Assembly (NCBI RefSeq): GCF_000425365.1
Contig: NZ_AUDH01000002.1
Coordinates: forward strand, 62,001 to 126,000
Origin: Rubritepida flocculans DSM 14296
GTDB taxonomy: Bacteria > Pseudomonadota > Alphaproteobacteria > Acetobacterales > Acetobacteraceae
Direction of reading: 5' to 3'
Length of the DNA: 64,000 nt
Shown: positions 2,023 to 62,502 of the stretch, piece by piece
Layout of the letters: every line of letters starts with the position of its first letter
Numbering within the stretch: the stretch's first letter is position 1
Notes under the pieces: generated by a model
The model's database searches: none
Told to the model about the DNA's origin: nothing
The model's input: only the letters and a program-made list of their open reading frames with translations
Made by a program: the position numbers and the translations under genes

Positions 2023-2694
2023 ATGAAGGCCGCCATCTGCGTCTTCCCCGGCACCAACCGCGAGCGCGACATGGCCATCGCGCTGGAGCGCGCCTCGGGC
2101 CGCAAGCCTCTCATGCTCTGGCACCGCGAGACGGCGCTGCCCCCGGGGCTCGATCTCGTGGTGCTGGCCGGCGGCTTCTCCTATGGCGACTATCTGCGCT
2201 GCGGGGCCATGGCCGCGCATTCGCCCGTCATGGCGGCGGTCCGGGACTTCGCGGCGCGGGGCGGGCATGTGCTGGGGGTGTGCAACGGCTTCCAGATCCT
2301 CACCGAGGCGGGGCTGCTGCCCGGCGCGCTGCTGCGCAACGCCAGCCTGCGCTTTCTAGCCATGGACTGCACGCTGCGCGTGGAGCGCGCGGACACGCCA
2401 TACACCGCGCATTTCCAGCAAGGGGCCACCTTCCGCGCCACCATGGCGCATGGCGACGGCAATTATTTCTGCGACCCCGCGACGCTGGCGGAGCTGGAGG
2501 GCGAGGGGCGCGTCGTGTTCCGCTACGCCGACGAGAACCGCAATGGCAGCCTCAACGCCATCGCGGGCATCTGCTCGCCCAATGCGCGGGTGCTCGGGCT
2601 GATGCCGCACCCCGAGAACTGCGTGGACCCGTTGGTGGGCGGCACCGAGGGGCTGCCGGTCTTCACCTCCATCGTGGAGAGCCTCGCGGCCTGA
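2023..2694 (+). CDS. purQ: Phosphoribosylformylglycinamidine synthase, glutaminase subunit PurQ
   Basis: PurQ hydrolyses glutamine and passes ammonia to PurL for FGAM formation. The 223-residue protein is a class I glutamine amidotransferase. It has the [13 protein letters not shown] segment, the nucleophile elbow GVCNGFQIL (catalytic Cys), and the C-terminal [12 protein letters not shown] that supplies His and Glu of the triad. It starts at ATG 2023, shortly after the third membrane gene. No purL follows: the next genes are on the opposite strand, so the large subunit must be encoded elsewhere. Confidence 0.96.
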
Positions 2695-2714
2695 AGGGCG
2701 GGAATACCTCCCCC

Positions 2715-3314
2715 CTACCGCCGCGGCCCCGCGCCTGGCGGGGCGGGCGGCGGCTCGCGCAGCGCGAAGCCGGGCGGGGGGCGGAACAGCGCGGGGTCCT
2801 GCGGGCCGAGGCGGATCTCCTCCTGGCGGAACTCCGTCGCCACGAGCTGCCCGCCCTGCGGCGCCATCTGCCGCGCCCACAGCAGCACGCCATCCGGCCG
2901 GCAGAGCACGCGCTCCGTCTCGCGCCAGCGCCCTCCTTCCTCCTGCAGCTCGGTGATCAGCGTCACGCCCTCGCGCCCGCGTTCCTCGCGCTGGCGCAGC
3001 GCCTCGGGCGGGATGGGCGGGCGCCGCGGGGCGGGCAGGCGCAGCGCCACCGGGGGGTTGGCCGCGGTGTCGAAGACGATCCGCCCCTCGGGGCTGAGCA
3101 GGGTGACGAGCCGCCCCGGCCCGCCATGGGGGGAGGGGGCCTCGATGCGCATGCGCCCCTCGGCGAAGAACACCCGCACGGGTGGCGGTGCGCCGGGGCC
3201 GAGCGTGACGCGCGTGGCGCTGTAGGAGGGCTGGCCGAGCCGGGCGCAGCGCGGATCGGCCTTCGCCGGGGCGGCGAGGGCGAGCAGCGCGGCGAGGCAG
3301 GCGGCGGCGCGCAT
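2715..3314 (-). CDS. Small secreted protein of the C39/outer-membrane export cluster, unknown function
   Basis: A 199-residue protein with a clear Sec signal peptide (MRAAACLAALLALAAPAKA, cleaved after AKA). The mature part is rich in beta-type segments (RVFFAEGRMRIEAP, LVTLLSPEGRIVFDT) and ends in a proline-rich tail. The pattern of short strands is loosely like periplasmic DUF4412/LolA-type folds, but I cannot assign it. It starts two bases after the C39 gene ends, so it is the last gene of a minus-strand operon with the tyrosine-rich protein and the outer-membrane channel. A role as an accessory in export of the cargo is inferred from context only. Confidence 0.7.
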   Translation of the reverse strand: MRAAACLAALLALAAPAKADPRCARLGQPSYSATRVTLGPGAPPPVRVFFAEGRMRIEAPSPHGGPGRLVTLLSPEGRIVFDTAANPPVALRLPAPRRPPIPPEALRQREERGREGVTLITELQEEGGRWRETERVLCRPDGVLLWARQMAPQGGQLVATEFRQEEIRLGPQDPALFRPPPGFALREPPPAPPGAGPRR

Positions 3315-3316
3315 CG

Positions 3317-3985
3317 TCAGAAGGGCAGGGCGAAGTCGCCGCGCGGCATCAGCCCCACGGCCCGCACCGCGTCGGCGAGGTTGCGCTCCACCGAAATCCC
3401 GTCGCGGATCACCTGCAGGGGCGAGCGCGTGGGCAGCGCCTCGCCCCGCCGCCAGACGGCCAGCGCCGCTCCGGTGTATTCTCGGCGGAAGCCGCCCTCC
3501 AGCATGCTGGTCTGCCCCACCATCGGATCGGCCAGGTAGAACACCCCCTCATGGCTCGCGCGCAGCACCGAGAAATGCTGCCAGCGCCCCTTGTCGAGAT
3601 GCACCACCAGCGGCCCGGCCACCCGGCCGAGCTGCTCGACCGGCACGCGCGCGGCCTGGGCGGCGAAGCCCAGCCGCTCGGCGGCGAAGATGAGATCGCC
3701 CAGGGAGAAGCCCGTCTCCGCGCGCTCCCGCCAGGCCTCGCGCGTGGGGTAGCGCTCGCGCAGCACCGTGATGACATCGGCCTCGCCCGTGGGCCGGCCG
3801 AGGAAATAGGTGAGGATGGTGGCGAGCGAGGCGCTGCCGCAGGAGAACTCCAGCACCTGGCGCACCACATGGCGGAAGCGGCGCTGCTGCCAGGAGAGGG
3901 GGCGGCGCATCTCCTCCGCCGCGGCCGGGCCGCCGGGGAGGGCCAGCAGGGCGGGCAGGGCCAGCAGGGCGCGGCGCGCGGGCAT
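3317..3985 (-). CDS. Periplasmic C39 family peptidase-like protein (FapD-like)
   Basis: A 222-residue protein with a signal peptide (ALLALPALLALPGGPAAA). A C39 papain-like domain follows: Gln43 in RQVLEFSCG (oxyanion hole), Cys49 in FSCGSASLATIL, His137 in WQHFSVLRA and Asp153 in YLADPMVG. All catalytic positions are present. Unlike bacteriocin ABC exporters it stands alone and is exported. This resembles FapD, the C39 protein of the Pseudomonas Fap amyloid system. It overlaps the outer-membrane channel gene by ATGA. Likely role: processing or handling of the tyrosine-rich cargo in the periplasm (inference). Confidence 0.88.
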   Translation of the reverse strand: MPARRALLALPALLALPGGPAAAEEMRRPLSWQQRRFRHVVRQVLEFSCGSASLATILTYFLGRPTGEADVITVLRERYPTREAWRERAETGFSLGDLIFAAERLGFAAQAARVPVEQLGRVAGPLVVHLDKGRWQHFSVLRASHEGVFYLADPMVGQTSMLEGGFRREYTGAALAVWRRGEALPTRSPLQVIRDGISVERNLADAVRAVGLMPRGDFALPF

Positions 3986-5187
3986 CAGAAGCGGTAGCGC
4001 AGCCCGAGGCCGAGCTGGAAGGAGGGGCTTTCCTGCACCAGGCCGAGCACCAGGGAGGGCTCCACCCAGAGGCTCTCGGCCATCTTCTGCACCAGGGCGA
4101 AGCGCAGCGCGCCCGTCTCCATGGCGGTGGGGCGGTAGGCGATGCCGCCCGCCCTGAGCCGCGTGGTGTAGGAGCCGAGGAAGCTGAGCCCGAGCGTGGA
4201 GCGCTCGCTCATCGCGAAGCTCATCCCCGCATTGTAGTTGATGCGCCGGCCCGGCTGGAAGGCGACGCCCTGGCGCTCGGCCTCGAAGGCGTGCTCGTAG
4301 GAGGCGCCGGCGAAGACCATGATCGGGTCGAAGGTCTTGAAGAACTGCGCGCCCAGCCGCACGGCCCAGGCGCCGCGCGCGTTGTAGAGGCGCAGCGGGT
4401 CCACCGGGATCGCCTGCTCGGTCAGCCCCTGGGGCGGGCGCAGGAAGGGCGAGGGGCCGGTGGGCGCCACCACGCCCAGGCTGAACACCGCGCCCGGGCG
4501 CAGCTCCCGCTCGCCCCAGCCGCGGATGTTCACCTGCAGCGCGATGTCGCCGAGCCGCGTCAGCTCGCGGTCGCTCACCAGGCCGGGGCCCGTCTCGATG
4601 GCGCGGGTGGAGTGGAAGAAGGGCAGGCTGAGCGAGGCCTCCACCCCCTCCATCACGCCCGCGCGCAGCGTGGCGGTGCCGGTGAGCAGGCGGTCGGCCG
4701 AGAGGGTGCGGCGGTGGCGGGCGTAGCCGAGGTCGAAGGAAGCCTCGAAGCGGCCGGGGCGCAGGGTCACGGCCTGGTCGCGGAAGATGAAGGCCTCCTG
4801 CGGCACCTCCTCGGCCTCGGCGCCCTGGCGGCCGATGGCGCTGGCCTGGACGGCGGGCAGGGGCGCGCCGGCCTGGGGGGAGGGGGGCGGGGCCGGGGAT
4901 TGCGGCGAGAGGCGCACCGGGGGCGGTGATGCGGGGGCCGAGGGGGCGGGCGCTGCGCCGGCGCCGGGGGCCGCGCTCGCCCCCCGGGCGGCGGCCGGCC
5001 GTGCGGCGGGGCGGGCCTGGCGCTCCAACTGCTCCAGGCGCTGTTCCAGCAGGCGGATGCGCTCCAGCAGCGCGGCCTCCTGCGCGGAGACGGTCTGCGC
5101 CTGGGCCGCGCCACCCAGCGCGAGCAGGGCGAGGGAGAGCAGGAGAGGGCCGGGCGAGGCCCGGCACATCGGTTCAGAACCCTGCAC
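3985..5187 (-). CDS. Outer-membrane beta-barrel channel with N-terminal coiled coil (FapF-like)
   Basis: A 400-residue protein. A signal peptide ends near AAQAQ. A helical segment with leucine heptads follows (EAALLERIRLLEQRLEQLERQ, about residues 36-56), then a low-complexity Ala/Pro linker to about residue 110, then a C-terminal beta-barrel with alternating strands ending in LGLRYRF, a terminal aromatic as needed for BAM insertion. The order coiled coil, linker, barrel matches FapF, the trimeric channel of Fap amyloid export; such barrels are often labelled MetA-pathway transporter. The GTG start at 5187 is preceded by GGAGG; an ATG at 5169 is the alternative. Confidence 0.85.
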   Translation of the reverse strand: MQGSEPMCRASPGPLLLSLALLALGGAAQAQTVSAQEAALLERIRLLEQRLEQLERQARPAARPAAARGASAAPGAGAAPAPSAPASPPPVRLSPQSPAPPPSPQAGAPLPAVQASAIGRQGAEAEEVPQEAFIFRDQAVTLRPGRFEASFDLGYARHRRTLSADRLLTGTATLRAGVMEGVEASLSLPFFHSTRAIETGPGLVSDRELTRLGDIALQVNIRGWGERELRPGAVFSLGVVAPTGPSPFLRPPQGLTEQAIPVDPLRLYNARGAWAVRLGAQFFKTFDPIMVFAGASYEHAFEAERQGVAFQPGRRINYNAGMSFAMSERSTLGLSFLGSYTTRLRAGGIAYRPTAMETGALRFALVQKMAESLWVEPSLVLGLVQESPSFQLGLGLRYRF

Positions 5188-5245
5188 GCGAATCGGCCTC
5201 CGGCGCGCCCCGGCGGGCGCCTTTGGTCACTCTCTCATGCCGGCG

Positions 5246-5276
5246 GCCGCCTTCTGCGGACCCGCGAGAAGGCGGC
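5246..5276 (-). promoter_or_regulatory. Stem-loop between the tyrosine-rich gene and the channel gene
   Basis: Perfect 10-bp arms (GCCGCCTTCT at 5246-5255 and AGAAGGCGGC at 5267-5276) enclose an 11-base loop in the 159-base gap between the two minus-strand genes. No T run follows in the direction of transcription. It may protect the upstream mRNA or terminate partially, so that the small tyrosine-rich product is made in excess over the channel. The structure is seen directly; the role is inferred. Confidence 0.5.
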
Positions 5277-5346
5277 GCGGCCGCGGGGATGCCCTTGTTG
5301 GGGCGCGTCGCCGGGCCGGACGGGCGCGGCGCCGCCGCCCGCCGTA

Positions 5347-5691
5347 TCAATACCCGTAGTAGGAGTAGAGATAGGCGTAGTAGGAGTAGATGTAGGCGTT
5401 ATAGGCGTTGAGCATGGCCGTGTAGTACCAGCTCTGCTCGGTGCTGCTGTTCGCCGCGGCGTAATACCGGGCGTAATAGGCGTAGACATAGGCCGTATAG
5501 GCCGCGTCCATCGCGTAATAGCCATAATAGTCCGCCCAGTAGCCCTTGGCGGTCACCTCGTTCGCCGCCTCGGGCGACATGACCGTCACCTCGGCCGAGC
5601 CGAAGACCGGGCTGCGCTCGGCCTGGACGGGGGCAGACAGGAGCCCGCACAGCCCCATCGCCAACAGGAGATTGAGAAGGGCGCGACGCAT
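5347..5691 (-). CDS. Tyrosine-rich secreted protein, probable cargo of the C39/channel cluster
   Basis: A 114-residue protein. ATG 5691 is chosen because GAGGAAG lies eight bases upstream; ATG 5706 would add five residues. A signal peptide ends APVQA. The roughly 90-residue mature part holds 24 tyrosines, about 27 percent. It has two imperfect Tyr/Ala repeats, AYTAYVYAYYARYY and AYNAYIYSYYAYLYSYYGY, after a short segment MSPEAANEVTAKG that recalls processing leaders. No cysteine is present in the mature part. The codons (TAT/TAC) make the region less GC-rich than its surroundings. It is first in the operon. It could be a fibre- or coat-forming polypeptide or a peptide precursor; I know no family match. 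Confidence 0.8.
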   Translation of the reverse strand: MRRALLNLLLAMGLCGLLSAPVQAERSPVFGSAEVTVMSPEAANEVTAKGYWADYYGYYAMDAAYTAYVYAYYARYYAAANSSTEQSWYYTAMLNAYNAYIYSYYAYLYSYYGY

Positions 5692-5751
5692 GGCTGTCTT
5701 CCTCATGAATTATTGATGACGTCGCGGATTTCGCCCCCTCCGCCCCCTTCG

Positions 5752-5757
5752 CGTCAA
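5752..5757 (-). promoter_or_regulatory. Possible -35 element upstream of the tyrosine-rich gene
   Basis: On the minus strand TTGACG lies about 60 bases upstream of the chosen start, in the 128-base gap between the gltS-type gene and the cluster. No clear -10 box is found at the right distance. An AT-rich patch (AATAATTC) lies just upstream of the start codon. The promoter is therefore only suggested. Apart from this the gap from 5692 to 5819 holds nothing I recognise. Confidence 0.2.
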
Positions 5758-5819
5758 CGCCGATCGGGACGGGTGGCGCGGAATTCATCCGGTGCGCCCG
5801 TGCATCGTTCGCGCCCGCC

Positions 5820-6998
5820 TCACCGCGCGAAGAGCGGCAGGGCCAGCAGCGCGCTCAGGATCACCGCGTTGGCGAGCGTGGTCACCAGCCCCGCCGTGAG
5901 CGAGACGACGAGAATGGCCTGCGGCATGGGCCCGTGCGCGCGCTCCATCTCGCGCATGGTGGCGAGGGCGGTGGCGGTGGAGCCGAGCGCGAAGCCGCAG
6001 AAGCCCGCGCTGGTCACCGCGGCCTCGGCGTCGCCGCCCAGGGCGCGGAAGCAGAGCCAGCGCGTGAAGGCGATGGTCAGCGCCGCCTGGGCGGCGATGA
6101 TGAGCAGCAGCGGCAGGGCGAGGGCCGCCACCTCCCCCAGCCGCAGCGCGGCCATGGCCAGCGCGAGGAAGAAGGCCAGCGCCAGCGCCTGCACCAGATC
6201 CATCGCCGCCGCCTCCGGCGCGACGCCGAGCGGGCCCAGCACCAGGTTGCGCAGCAGCACGCCAAGAAAGAGGGGCCAGAGGAAGTCCGGCAGCGTCGCC
6301 GGCAGCGCCGCGGCGCGGGCGGCGATCCAGGCGCCGCCCACAACCGTCAGCAGCACCAGGGCGAGGGCGCCGGTCACGGCCTCCGCCGAGGCCGCAGGCG
6401 GCGCGGGGGCGGGCGGGGAGGCCGGTCCGCGCCGCGCCGCGCCGGCGGGCAGGAGGCCCCGCACGGAGGGCCCCGCCAGCAGCCCGCCCAGCACGATGCC
6501 CAGAGTGGCCGCGGCCAGCGCCACCTCCCTGGCGCCCTCCAGCCCGTGCCGCGACTCGAAGAGCGCCGCGAAGGCCGCCCCCGTGCCATGCCCGCCCACC
6601 AGCGTGATCGAGCCGGCGAGCAGCCCGATGAGCGGATCGAGCCCGAGCAGCAGCGCGAGCCCGATGCCGAGCAGGTTCTGCGCCAGGATGAACAGCGCGA
6701 CCAGCACGCCGAGCCGGGCCAGCGCCGGCCCGCCCGCGCGCAGGCTGCCGAGATCGGCCGAGAGGCCGATGGCGGCGAAGAAGGCCAGCAGCATCGGCTC
6801 GCGCAGCGCCGCGTTGCCGGGAGGCGACCAGCCGAGCAGGGCCTGCGCCGCCCAGGCGGCCAGCGCGAGCAGCAGCCCGCCCGTCACCGCTTCGGGGATG
6901 TTCCAGCCGGCCAGGGCGGGCAGCCGCGCATGCAGCAGCCGGCCGAGCAGCAGAACCCCCGCGGCGAGCCCCAGCCCTGCGAGCGCATCGCCTTCCAT
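5820..6998 (-). CDS. gltS: Sodium/glutamate symporter, GltS family
   Basis: A 392-residue inner-membrane protein of the ESS family (E. coli GltS has 401 residues) that takes up glutamate with sodium. The two inverted halves each carry their signature re-entrant loop: GGHGTGAAFAALFE in the first and GFCGFALGSTATALATM in the second. About ten hydrophobic helices are visible, with a proline- and alanine-rich central loop between the halves. The ATG at 6998 follows a G-rich ribosome site. It stands alone on the minus strand between the tyrosine-rich cluster and an amidase gene. Substrate is assigned from the family; related carriers may take other dicarboxylic amino acids. Confidence 0.88.
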   Translation of the reverse strand: MEGDALAGLGLAAGVLLLGRLLHARLPALAGWNIPEAVTGGLLLALAAWAAQALLGWSPPGNAALREPMLLAFFAAIGLSADLGSLRAGGPALARLGVLVALFILAQNLLGIGLALLLGLDPLIGLLAGSITLVGGHGTGAAFAALFESRHGLEGAREVALAAATLGIVLGGLLAGPSVRGLLPAGAARRGPASPPAPAPPAASAEAVTGALALVLLTVVGGAWIAARAAALPATLPDFLWPLFLGVLLRNLVLGPLGVAPEAAAMDLVQALALAFFLALAMAALRLGEVAALALPLLLIIAAQAALTIAFTRWLCFRALGGDAEAAVTSAGFCGFALGSTATALATMREMERAHGPMPQAILVVSLTAGLVTTLANAVILSALLALPLFAR

Positions 6999-61524: not shown

Positions 61525-62502
61525 TCACCCCGCCCCGGAGGCGCGGATCACCGGCGTCCAGCGCGTCTGCTCCGCCTCCACCCAGGCGGCGAGGCGCTCC
61601 TGCGCCACCTCCTCGGTGCGGACGAAGGCGGCCTGGTCGAGCCGCTCGCGGATCCCCGGCTCGGCCAGGATGGCGCGCACCGCCTCGGCCAGCCGCGCCG
61701 AGATCGCGGCCGGCAGCCCCGCCGGCCCGCAGAGCATGAACCAGTTGAGGCTGACGACGTTGGCGAAGCCCGCCTCCCGCGCCGTCGGCACATCGGGCAG
61801 GATGGCCGCGCGCTCGGGCGAGGAGACGCAGAGGCCGCGCAGAGTGCCCGAGCGCACCGCGCCCACATTGGCCGCCGCCGTGTCCCACAGCGAGGTGGTG
61901 GTGCCGCCCAGCACGGCCTGCTGCGCCTCGGGCGCGCCGCGGAAGGGCGCGTGCAGAAGCTGCGCGCCCGCCTGAATGCCGAACAGAACCCCCGTCAGAT
62001 GGCCCATGGAGCCGATGCCGGAGGAGCCGAAGCTCACCGCCTCCGGCGCGCGGCGCGCCGCCGCGGCATAGTCCTGCAGGGAGCGGATGGGGCTGTTGCC
62101 CGCCACGGCGCAGAGGATGGGCGCGCCGCCCATCAGCGCGATGTAGCTGAAGCTGCGCGCCGCGCTGTAGGCGAGGCCCGTCTGCATCTGCGGCAGCAGG
62201 ATGAGCGGGCCCGGCGTGGTCAGCAGCAGCGAGTAGCCGTCGGGCCGCTCGTTCGCCGCCGCCGTCAGCCCCACCGCGCCGCCGCCGCCCGCGCGGTTGT
62301 CGATCACGAAGGGCTGGCCGAGGAGGCGCTCCAGCCGCTCCGCCACCGGGCGCATGATGAGGTCCGAGGCGCCGCCGGGCGTGAAGGGGATGATGATGCG
62401 CACCGGCCGGTTGGGCCAGGCGGCCTGGGCGGAAGCGAGCCCGGGCGCAAGGGCGGGGGCCGCGAGCAGCGGCAGCGAGAGGAGGGAGCGGCGTGTCGTC
62501 AT
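61525..62502 (-). CDS. Tripartite tricarboxylate transporter substrate-binding protein (Bug/TctC family)
   Basis: A 325-residue periplasmic receptor. A leader (TTRRSLLSLPLLAAPALAPGLASAQA) precedes VRIIIPFTPGGASDLIMRPVAERL, quoted by its core IPFTPGGASDLIMRPVAE, with FVIDNRAGGGGAVGL and SFGSSGIGSMGHLTG. ATG 62502 is chosen; ATG 62514 would add MPGG. It is the fourth Bug receptor in this window and, like the others, has no TctA/TctB genes beside it. Ligand unknown. Confidence 0.9.
   Translation of the reverse strand: MTTRRSLLSLPLLAAPALAPGLASAQAAWPNRPVRIIIPFTPGGASDLIMRPVAERLERLLGQPFVIDNRAGGGGAVGLTAAANERPDGYSLLLTTPGPLILLPQMQTGLAYSAARSFSYIALMGGAPILCAVAGNSPIRSLQDYAAAARRAPEAVSFGSSGIGSMGHLTGVLFGIQAGAQLLHAPFRGAPEAQQAVLGGTTTSLWDTAAANVGAVRSGTLRGLCVSSPERAAILPDVPTAREAGFANVVSLNWFMLCGPAGLPAAISARLAEAVRAILAEPGIRERLDQAAFVRTEEVAQERLAAWVEAEQTRWTPVIRASGAG

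Follow-up and report, generated by a model that had tools for sequence, protein, structure and literature searches.

In the Fap amyloid system of Pseudomonas, the exported C39 peptidase FapD is encoded together with FapF, an outer-membrane barrel with a coiled-coil N terminus (PMC5557850, PMC6173800) and a PTG motif that has been named as its proposed gate (PMC6173800). The target of FapD was left unclear in the FapF paper, the Fap proteins being without a canonical C39 site, and the N terminus of FapE seemed to be processed (PMC5557850). Homologues of fapD and fapF are co-located in five further phyla (PMC6173800), and the Nap island of Neisseria combines a C39 peptidase (NapP) and a FapF homologue (NapF) with NapABC, helical peptides with double-glycine (GG) motifs that contribute to autolysis (PMC11798529). 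In this study, we have analyzed a window of 64,000 nucleotides (the whole stretch, positions 62,001 to 126,000 of contig NZ_AUDH01000002.1 from Rubritepida flocculans DSM 14296, Acetobacteraceae), which carries a four-gene cassette for relatives of this machinery and for a tyrosine-rich (Tyr-rich) protein with a signal peptide.

The cassette is a real, conserved and self-contained unit, whose machinery is of a known type and whose cargo is unusual. We consider it fairly probable that its C39 peptidase cuts the Tyr-rich protein and that a FapF-type pore exports the product, a reading supported in this analysis by the homology of pore and peptidase, a cassette that is intact across seven species, a statistical motif at the candidate site and the lack of a FapC match. 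The cargo precursor would enter the periplasm via Sec, where the exported C39 peptidase would recognize residues 38-49 behind the signal peptide, a degenerate double-glycine-type leader, and cut near K49/G50, in the way that we propose for further family members and their leaders. The resulting aromatic/Ala-rich product of ~65 residues, a predicted helical hairpin, would then leave through the FapF-type outer-membrane pore, with the DUF4412-like product of gene 4 holding or assembling the sticky cargo in the periplasm. Our guess is that, outside the cell, this product most likely becomes part of the surface or matrix and packs via its aromatic side chains.

Relatives of the Fap machinery in a conserved cassette

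The four-gene export cluster that a sequence-only reading had picked out on this stretch is real. Its four open reading frames, all on the minus strand and spanning 5691 to 2715, lie in the order given there, from the Tyr-rich protein through the barrel and the C39 peptidase to gene 4 (Table 1). The junctions it described stand in part: a gap of 2 bases does separate the C39 stop from the gene 4 start, and the barrel and C39 genes share a one-base overlap, TGATG and not ATGA.

Table 1. Features of the cassette, in positions of the window
Feature	Position	Strand	Remark
P0001, Tyr-rich cargo precursor, 114 aa	5347..5691	-	Sec-type signal peptide at about residues 1-24, by eye
Candidate degenerate double-glycine-type site MSPEAANEVTAK, residues 38-49	5545..5580	-	Lone peak when the family is scanned
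Proposed mature cargo, residues 50-114	5350..5544	-	37% Tyr; predicted helical hairpin
P0002, FapF-type outer-membrane barrel, 400 aa from GTG	3985..5187	-	NF058560 5.9e-20; FapF 5o67/5o65 8e-14 (phmmer)
P0003, exported FapD-type C39 peptidase, 222 aa	3317..3985	-	PF03412 5.3e-17; NF058616 7.9e-22
P0004 (gene 4), exported accessory protein, 199 aa	2715..3314	-	Distant DUF4412-like relative

Protein models and matches to FapF itself point to homology with FapD and FapF, as had been proposed. P0002 begins with a coiled-coil-like stretch (the N-terminal coiled coil of the sequence-only reading) and a Pro/Ala-rich linker, both seen by eye, followed by a barrel region with a PTG motif. Residues 211-400 match solved FapF, and APTG of P0002 aligns with APTG of FapF. 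In P0003, the stretch with the catalytic residues aligns to the ComA peptidase domain, and Gln43, Cys49, His137 and Asp153, described before as intact, are present and invariant in all five aligned sequences (the window and four relatives). The five cassette C39 proteins group apart, with a long branch and a support of 83/94 (not starred), in a tree that is unrooted and whose PCAT outgroup rows were poor, one of them being excluded. All five C39 signal peptides also contain an R-R-x-L pattern (3950-3985 in the window; L002-L005 in the relatives). Such a pattern can mark Tat signals.

The likeness to Fap lies in an exported C39 peptidase and a FapF-homologous barrel, with coiled-coil-like N terminus and PTG motif, that are encoded together (PMC5557850, PMC6173800), and it agrees with the published co-location of fapD and fapF homologues in further phyla (PMC6173800). 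The differences are that P0001 and P0004 match no Fap subunit model, that neither of these two proteins, which were the ones compared, matches FapE, that the equivalog scores of the machinery are far under cut-off, and that the cargo is aromatic and predicted to be helical. The absence of Fap amyloid subunits had been claimed before, and the FapC model NF058558 indeed found no match in the window's own genome or in three related genomes with the cassette (G301, G322 and G352), whereas the positive controls responded (G518 at 2.1e-15; G047 weakly, at 1.8e-4). With the Nap island the cassette shares, by description and not by comparison with NapP or NapF sequences, C39 and FapF-homologue machinery with a short helical, non-amyloid cargo (PMC11798529). 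Nap has cationic peptides of 16-36 residues with GG motifs, together with NapR, NapH and NapI (PMC11798529); the cargo here is of ~65 residues, weakly acidic and Tyr/Ala-rich with a candidate K/R-degenerate site, and gene 4 is DUF4412-like. As regards the general idea, the earlier statement that no such system had been described went too far, since FapD/FapF-like machinery with a non-amyloid cargo is already published as the Nap island (PMC11798529). A literature search that covered no preprints and few subscription papers found no report of such a system with a Tyr-rich or aromatic helical cargo, and none of a FapD leader motif that is shared and includes K/R.

More distant is the likeness to Fil, a putative pilus system of Acinetobacter (P0003 to FilB, 5.2e-16; P0002 to FilC, 7e-6). 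These matches are weaker than those to FapD and FapF and fall below the cut-offs (58.8 of 475 bits for FilB and 25.6 of 630 for FilC); the four cassette proteins match no other Fil model, and a literature search for FilB with C39 found no papers. In a plasmid collection, two gonococcal records match P0003 at 36% across 72% of the protein, and P0001 gave no match. The collection includes chromosome-sized records of 2.2 to 4.9 million bases (NZ_AP026896.1, NZ_CP119142.1 and NZ_CP119140.1).

A C39 scan of 84,980 species, each represented by one genome and with only close relatives within its reach, yielded four loci in Roseococcus and Acetobacteraceae assemblies (L002, L003, L004 and L005, from genomes G778, G780, G781 and G301, respectively), each with the Tyr-rich, barrel, C39 and gene 4 genes in the order of the window. 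The Tyr-rich profile matched four of 397 genomes of the family, all among the 14 members of the genus in that sample (the window's own included), and none of the 383 others; G322 and G352 are further genomes with the full set (loci L053 and L054). That the Tyr-rich gene would accompany the C39 and barrel genes, a check set by the sequence-only reading, was upheld: among 21 genomes of the genus, its profile and the cassette-type C39 profile match the same seven, no Tyr-rich gene was seen without C39, and barrel and gene 4 are present at all seven loci inspected. An extra weak C39 match in G278 (1.1e-5) lies in a 747-residue frame and is thus probably an ABC-fused peptidase. The complete cassette, with its order kept, occurs in seven species of one genus.

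The cargo and its candidate cleavage site

Tyr accounts for 24 of the 114 residues of the cargo precursor (21%). The value of about 27% reported before is reached once the first 24 residues, the signal peptide placed by eye, are removed, and it is not conserved in the relatives, where Tyr makes up 8-14% of the whole protein. In the last 65 residues of the window cargo it reaches 37%, compared with 14-25% of the mature part in six relatives, and Tyr, Phe, Trp and His together constitute 40% of the mature part in the window versus 31-34% in relatives. High Tyr is peculiar to the window strain; the cargo of the relatives is aromatic/Ala-rich. Identity between the window cargo and four relatives is 45-49%. 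The ratio of nonsynonymous to synonymous substitution rates (dN/dS) is 0.15-0.42 in nine of ten pairs from five relatives (the tenth is saturated), which argues that the Tyr-rich gene is not a chance frame; these ratios are rough, dS being >1 in most pairs, and the close pair L005/L053 gives 0.21.

At the candidate site, the seven Tyr-rich proteins share the consensus [MLI]S..A...[VI][TM]A[RK]G. The site is the lone peak of the family scan, with a mean of 3.3 bits compared with -8.7 for the next best, and with a matrix made of GG motifs only the peak was equalled in 13 of 2000 column permutations. Adding the FapE and L104 motifs described below gave figures of 2 of 2000 and 6 of 2000, which are partly post hoc since these motifs were already known when they were included. 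The cut is proposed after K49 and before the invariant G50, with a cut after G50 as the alternative. The Tyr-rich protein is likely to be the C39 substrate because it carries this candidate degenerate leader, MSPEAANEVTAK followed by G. Compared with small leader proteins upstream of other C39 genes, the cargo profile gave a weak result (prob 44), and with GF/FapE-like leader proteins nothing (prob 2.3).

The AlphaFold2 model of the cargo (mean pLDDT 71.5) has a short helix of low confidence at 40-46, a break, and helices at 51-77 and 83-112; by blocks, pLDDT is ~42-56 over residues 21-50 and 81-88 in the later helices, with 73 at the end. Such a layout would look like a leader, a cut and then a helical hairpin. 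A fold search with the model returned nine matches at an E limit of 10, and none of them was at E <= 0.001.

These results bear on the suggestion that the Tyr-rich protein is, by analogy to FapB and FapC, the subunit of an amyloid-type (cross-beta) fibre. In its favour are the homology of the machinery with the Fap exporter and, at L038, a C39/barrel locus of another member of the Acetobacteraceae, a repeat protein with weak matches to FapB (2.6e-5) and FapC (2.1e-4). P0001, however, has no match to any NCBIfam model, FapB, FapC and FapE included; its aromatic residues show no strand-like periodicity; and AlphaFold2 gives helices, although AlphaFold2 can miss amyloid. We regard a cross-beta fibre as distinctly improbable. 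The interpretation offered by the sequence-only reading is supported in part: the related secretion route stands, and a beta-type fibre is not favoured because of the predicted helices.

By the Nap precedent, in which short alpha-helical peptides with GG motifs go with a C39 peptidase and a FapF homologue (PMC11798529), the mature cargo might instead be a small membrane-active or signalling (bacteriocin-like) peptide, with gene 4 protecting the producer. The cargo is small and predicted by AlphaFold2 to be helical, and the alphaproteobacterial loci L046 and L108 carry several short proteins with VTAG leaders beside C39. Against this, the mature cargo is weakly acidic and not cationic, with a net charge of -1 to -2 in all seven proteins, its aromatics show no significant amphipathic or strand periodicity, and gene 4, in a comparison that did not take immunity proteins one by one, resembles DUF4412-type exported proteins. 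Taken together, this makes such a peptide unlikely.

Several points weigh against the reading that we favour, cleavage by the C39 peptidase and export through the FapF-type pore. The residue preceding the proposed cut is K/R and not Gly, and the window C39 protein itself holds a higher-scoring motif match than the cargo (12.6 versus 10.6). Taken singly, the proteins differ widely in how often 5000 shuffles reach their score: 7 times for the window, 59 for L004, 174, 326 and 340 for L054, L053 and L005, which are weak, and 1817 and 2938 for L003 and L002, the two of the seven that show nothing above chance. The scores lie below the NCBIfam equivalog cut-offs (71 of 700 bits for the FapF model NF058560 and 78 of 330 for the FapD model NF058616), so that P0002 and P0003 are relatives of the Fap machinery and not Fap members. 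The helical model of the cargo was built on five sequences, and the AlphaFold2 model of P0004 was unusable (pLDDT 47.8) and too poor for a fold search with gene 4. Finally, in 10 of the 32 C39 loci considered below, a same-strand motif fails to beat all shuffles.

Leader motifs beside FapD-like genes

Because the target of FapD is unclear in the FapF paper, the neighbourhoods of FapD-like C39 genes were examined at 32 loci. Twelve came from the family, the best 12 of 41 match places besides the window (one of these loci, L046, holds a thirteenth as well), the remaining places being mostly in frames of >700 residues and probably ABC-fused; the other 20 came from the class, out of 25 match places in genomes other than that of the window. 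At 27 of the 32 there is a FapF-like barrel; the five loci with no barrel hit are L037, L045 and L046, which lie on short contigs, and L099 and L101.

Proteins adjoining the C39 genes carry leaders such as LSDAQLGTIRGG, LSDNELGELRGG and LNDSQMDNVTAG. With each locus and its near twins left out in turn, a same-strand double-glycine-type leader beat all 100 shuffles at 22 of the 32 loci, compared with two on the other strand (L047 and L109, where the leader genes appear to be oppositely oriented). The GG training motifs were picked from these same loci, and the Tyr-rich proteins were in no training set. At L046 (1165-4537), four short proteins with similar VTAG leaders are followed by two tandem C39 peptidase genes.

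The motif was also read on FapE matches: VSDDALADMRGR in L091 (1.3e-16), LADDELSDMHGK in L092 (1.9e-21; the best hit of this locus in the 32-locus test is another protein), IADEELGSIRGK in L093 (1.5e-22), LADGELAHLRGR in Aeromonas L141 (2.3e-12) and VADSMLAKMIGK in Acidithiobacillus L142 (2.1e-22). All five of these clear matches end in G-K or G-R, and a weak one in L097 (1e-4) ends in GG; none attains the FapE cut-off of 250 bits. These motifs were found by reading, with shuffle tests for L091 (2 of 100) and L093 (0 of 100) only. Close to the form of the Tyr-rich family is LSDAEMSEIVARG, carried by L104. The FapE match of L093 has no match in the plasmid collection. L142 is the Acidithiobacillus plasmid p5 (6493 bases), with Fap-like genes including the FapE match and a C39-like sequence in two open pieces.

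The K/R ending on FapE raises the possibility that the Tyr-rich protein is a FapE-like accessory, cut by C39 to open the pore, with the true cargo encoded elsewhere in the genome. FapE is the proposed FapD target (PMC5557850; PMC12822426), and all five clear FapE matches share the K/R-ending motif. Yet the cassette recurs as a self-contained unit, and the window's own genome has no match to FapC (the FapB and FapE models were not run on the genome), to the repeat protein or the GF leader protein of L038 (with responding positive controls for both), or to the A4 leader proteins, in a search that lacked a positive control. This makes a FapE-like accessory role very doubtful.

A bolder form of the favoured scheme would be a single FapD-family recognition code, a double-glycine-type leader ending in Gly, Lys or Arg, that the Roseococcus cassette has put on a helical aromatic hairpin, giving a non-beta, Tyr-packed extracellular polymer. 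The leader seen on FapE and on neighbours of most of the FapD-like genes examined is consistent with such a code; we put the combined proposal forward tentatively, as rather unlikely.

Gene 4, the setting of the cassette and its meaning

P0004 has no direct Pfam match to DUF4412. Its profile aligns with DUF4412-matching proteins over 173 columns (hhalign prob 96.6, E 5.6e-10), the four aligned proteins, from other Acetobacteraceae, all matching DUF4412 (best 1.6e-5), and a profile search of solved structures with P0004 gave no match even at an E limit of 10. When the gene 4 profile was run on 200 genomes of the family, 25 matched (E <= 0.01), although 18 of these 25 places were no better than ~1e-4. 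A DUF4412-like protein is present at four of five such loci inspected (L056-L059 and L061) and none is seen at L061; in L057 and L058 it is encoded just upstream of a gene that we take to be lolA-like. The product of gene 4 is probably a periplasmic holdase or assembly factor for the sticky cargo.

In the window, 159 very GC-rich bases (5188-5346; 80.5%) separate the Tyr-rich gene from the GTG of the barrel gene, which also has an in-frame ATG at 5169. In each of six relatives the first ATG, a candidate start of the barrel gene, comes 6-8 bases after the stop codon of the Tyr-rich gene, a spacing compatible with one operon. No promoter was detected in a scan of 2600-5900, and the single terminator-like site in this range lies within gene 4, with 0.4 expected. 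At the start of the barrel gene, the palindrome CAGACA AAA TGTCTG is found in L002 (4812-4826) and L054 (8117-8131) and, with five-base arms, in L003 (4773-4787). With arms of at least five bases it is absent from L005 and L053, and the window gives only a GC-rich match. The palindrome could act as a regulator site or form a hairpin.

The cassette of the window lies between what we take to be a gltS-like gene upstream, on the same strand, and purQ downstream, on the other strand. Unlike these flanks, those in L002, the one relative compared in this respect, are presumably a receptor-like gene on one side and, on the other, a cyclopropane-synthase-like gene that comes after gyrB. Since L002 carries it at another site, the cassette behaves as a unit, and looks like one that has been gained, lost or moved. 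The genome with the closest purQ (G779, 95%) has a different gene after purQ and no cargo or C39 match, in an assembly that is 91% complete and in which only 491 bases of the contig lie beyond purQ.

The candidate recognition motif of the FapD family is the most useful result of this analysis, and is directly testable. A minimal system with one candidate substrate, together with a motif seen repeatedly on FapE and next to FapD-like genes, makes the question of the FapD target open to experiment. Furthermore, the suggestion that the FapF class of pores carries helical as well as amyloid cargo bears on how such a pore may select what it exports.

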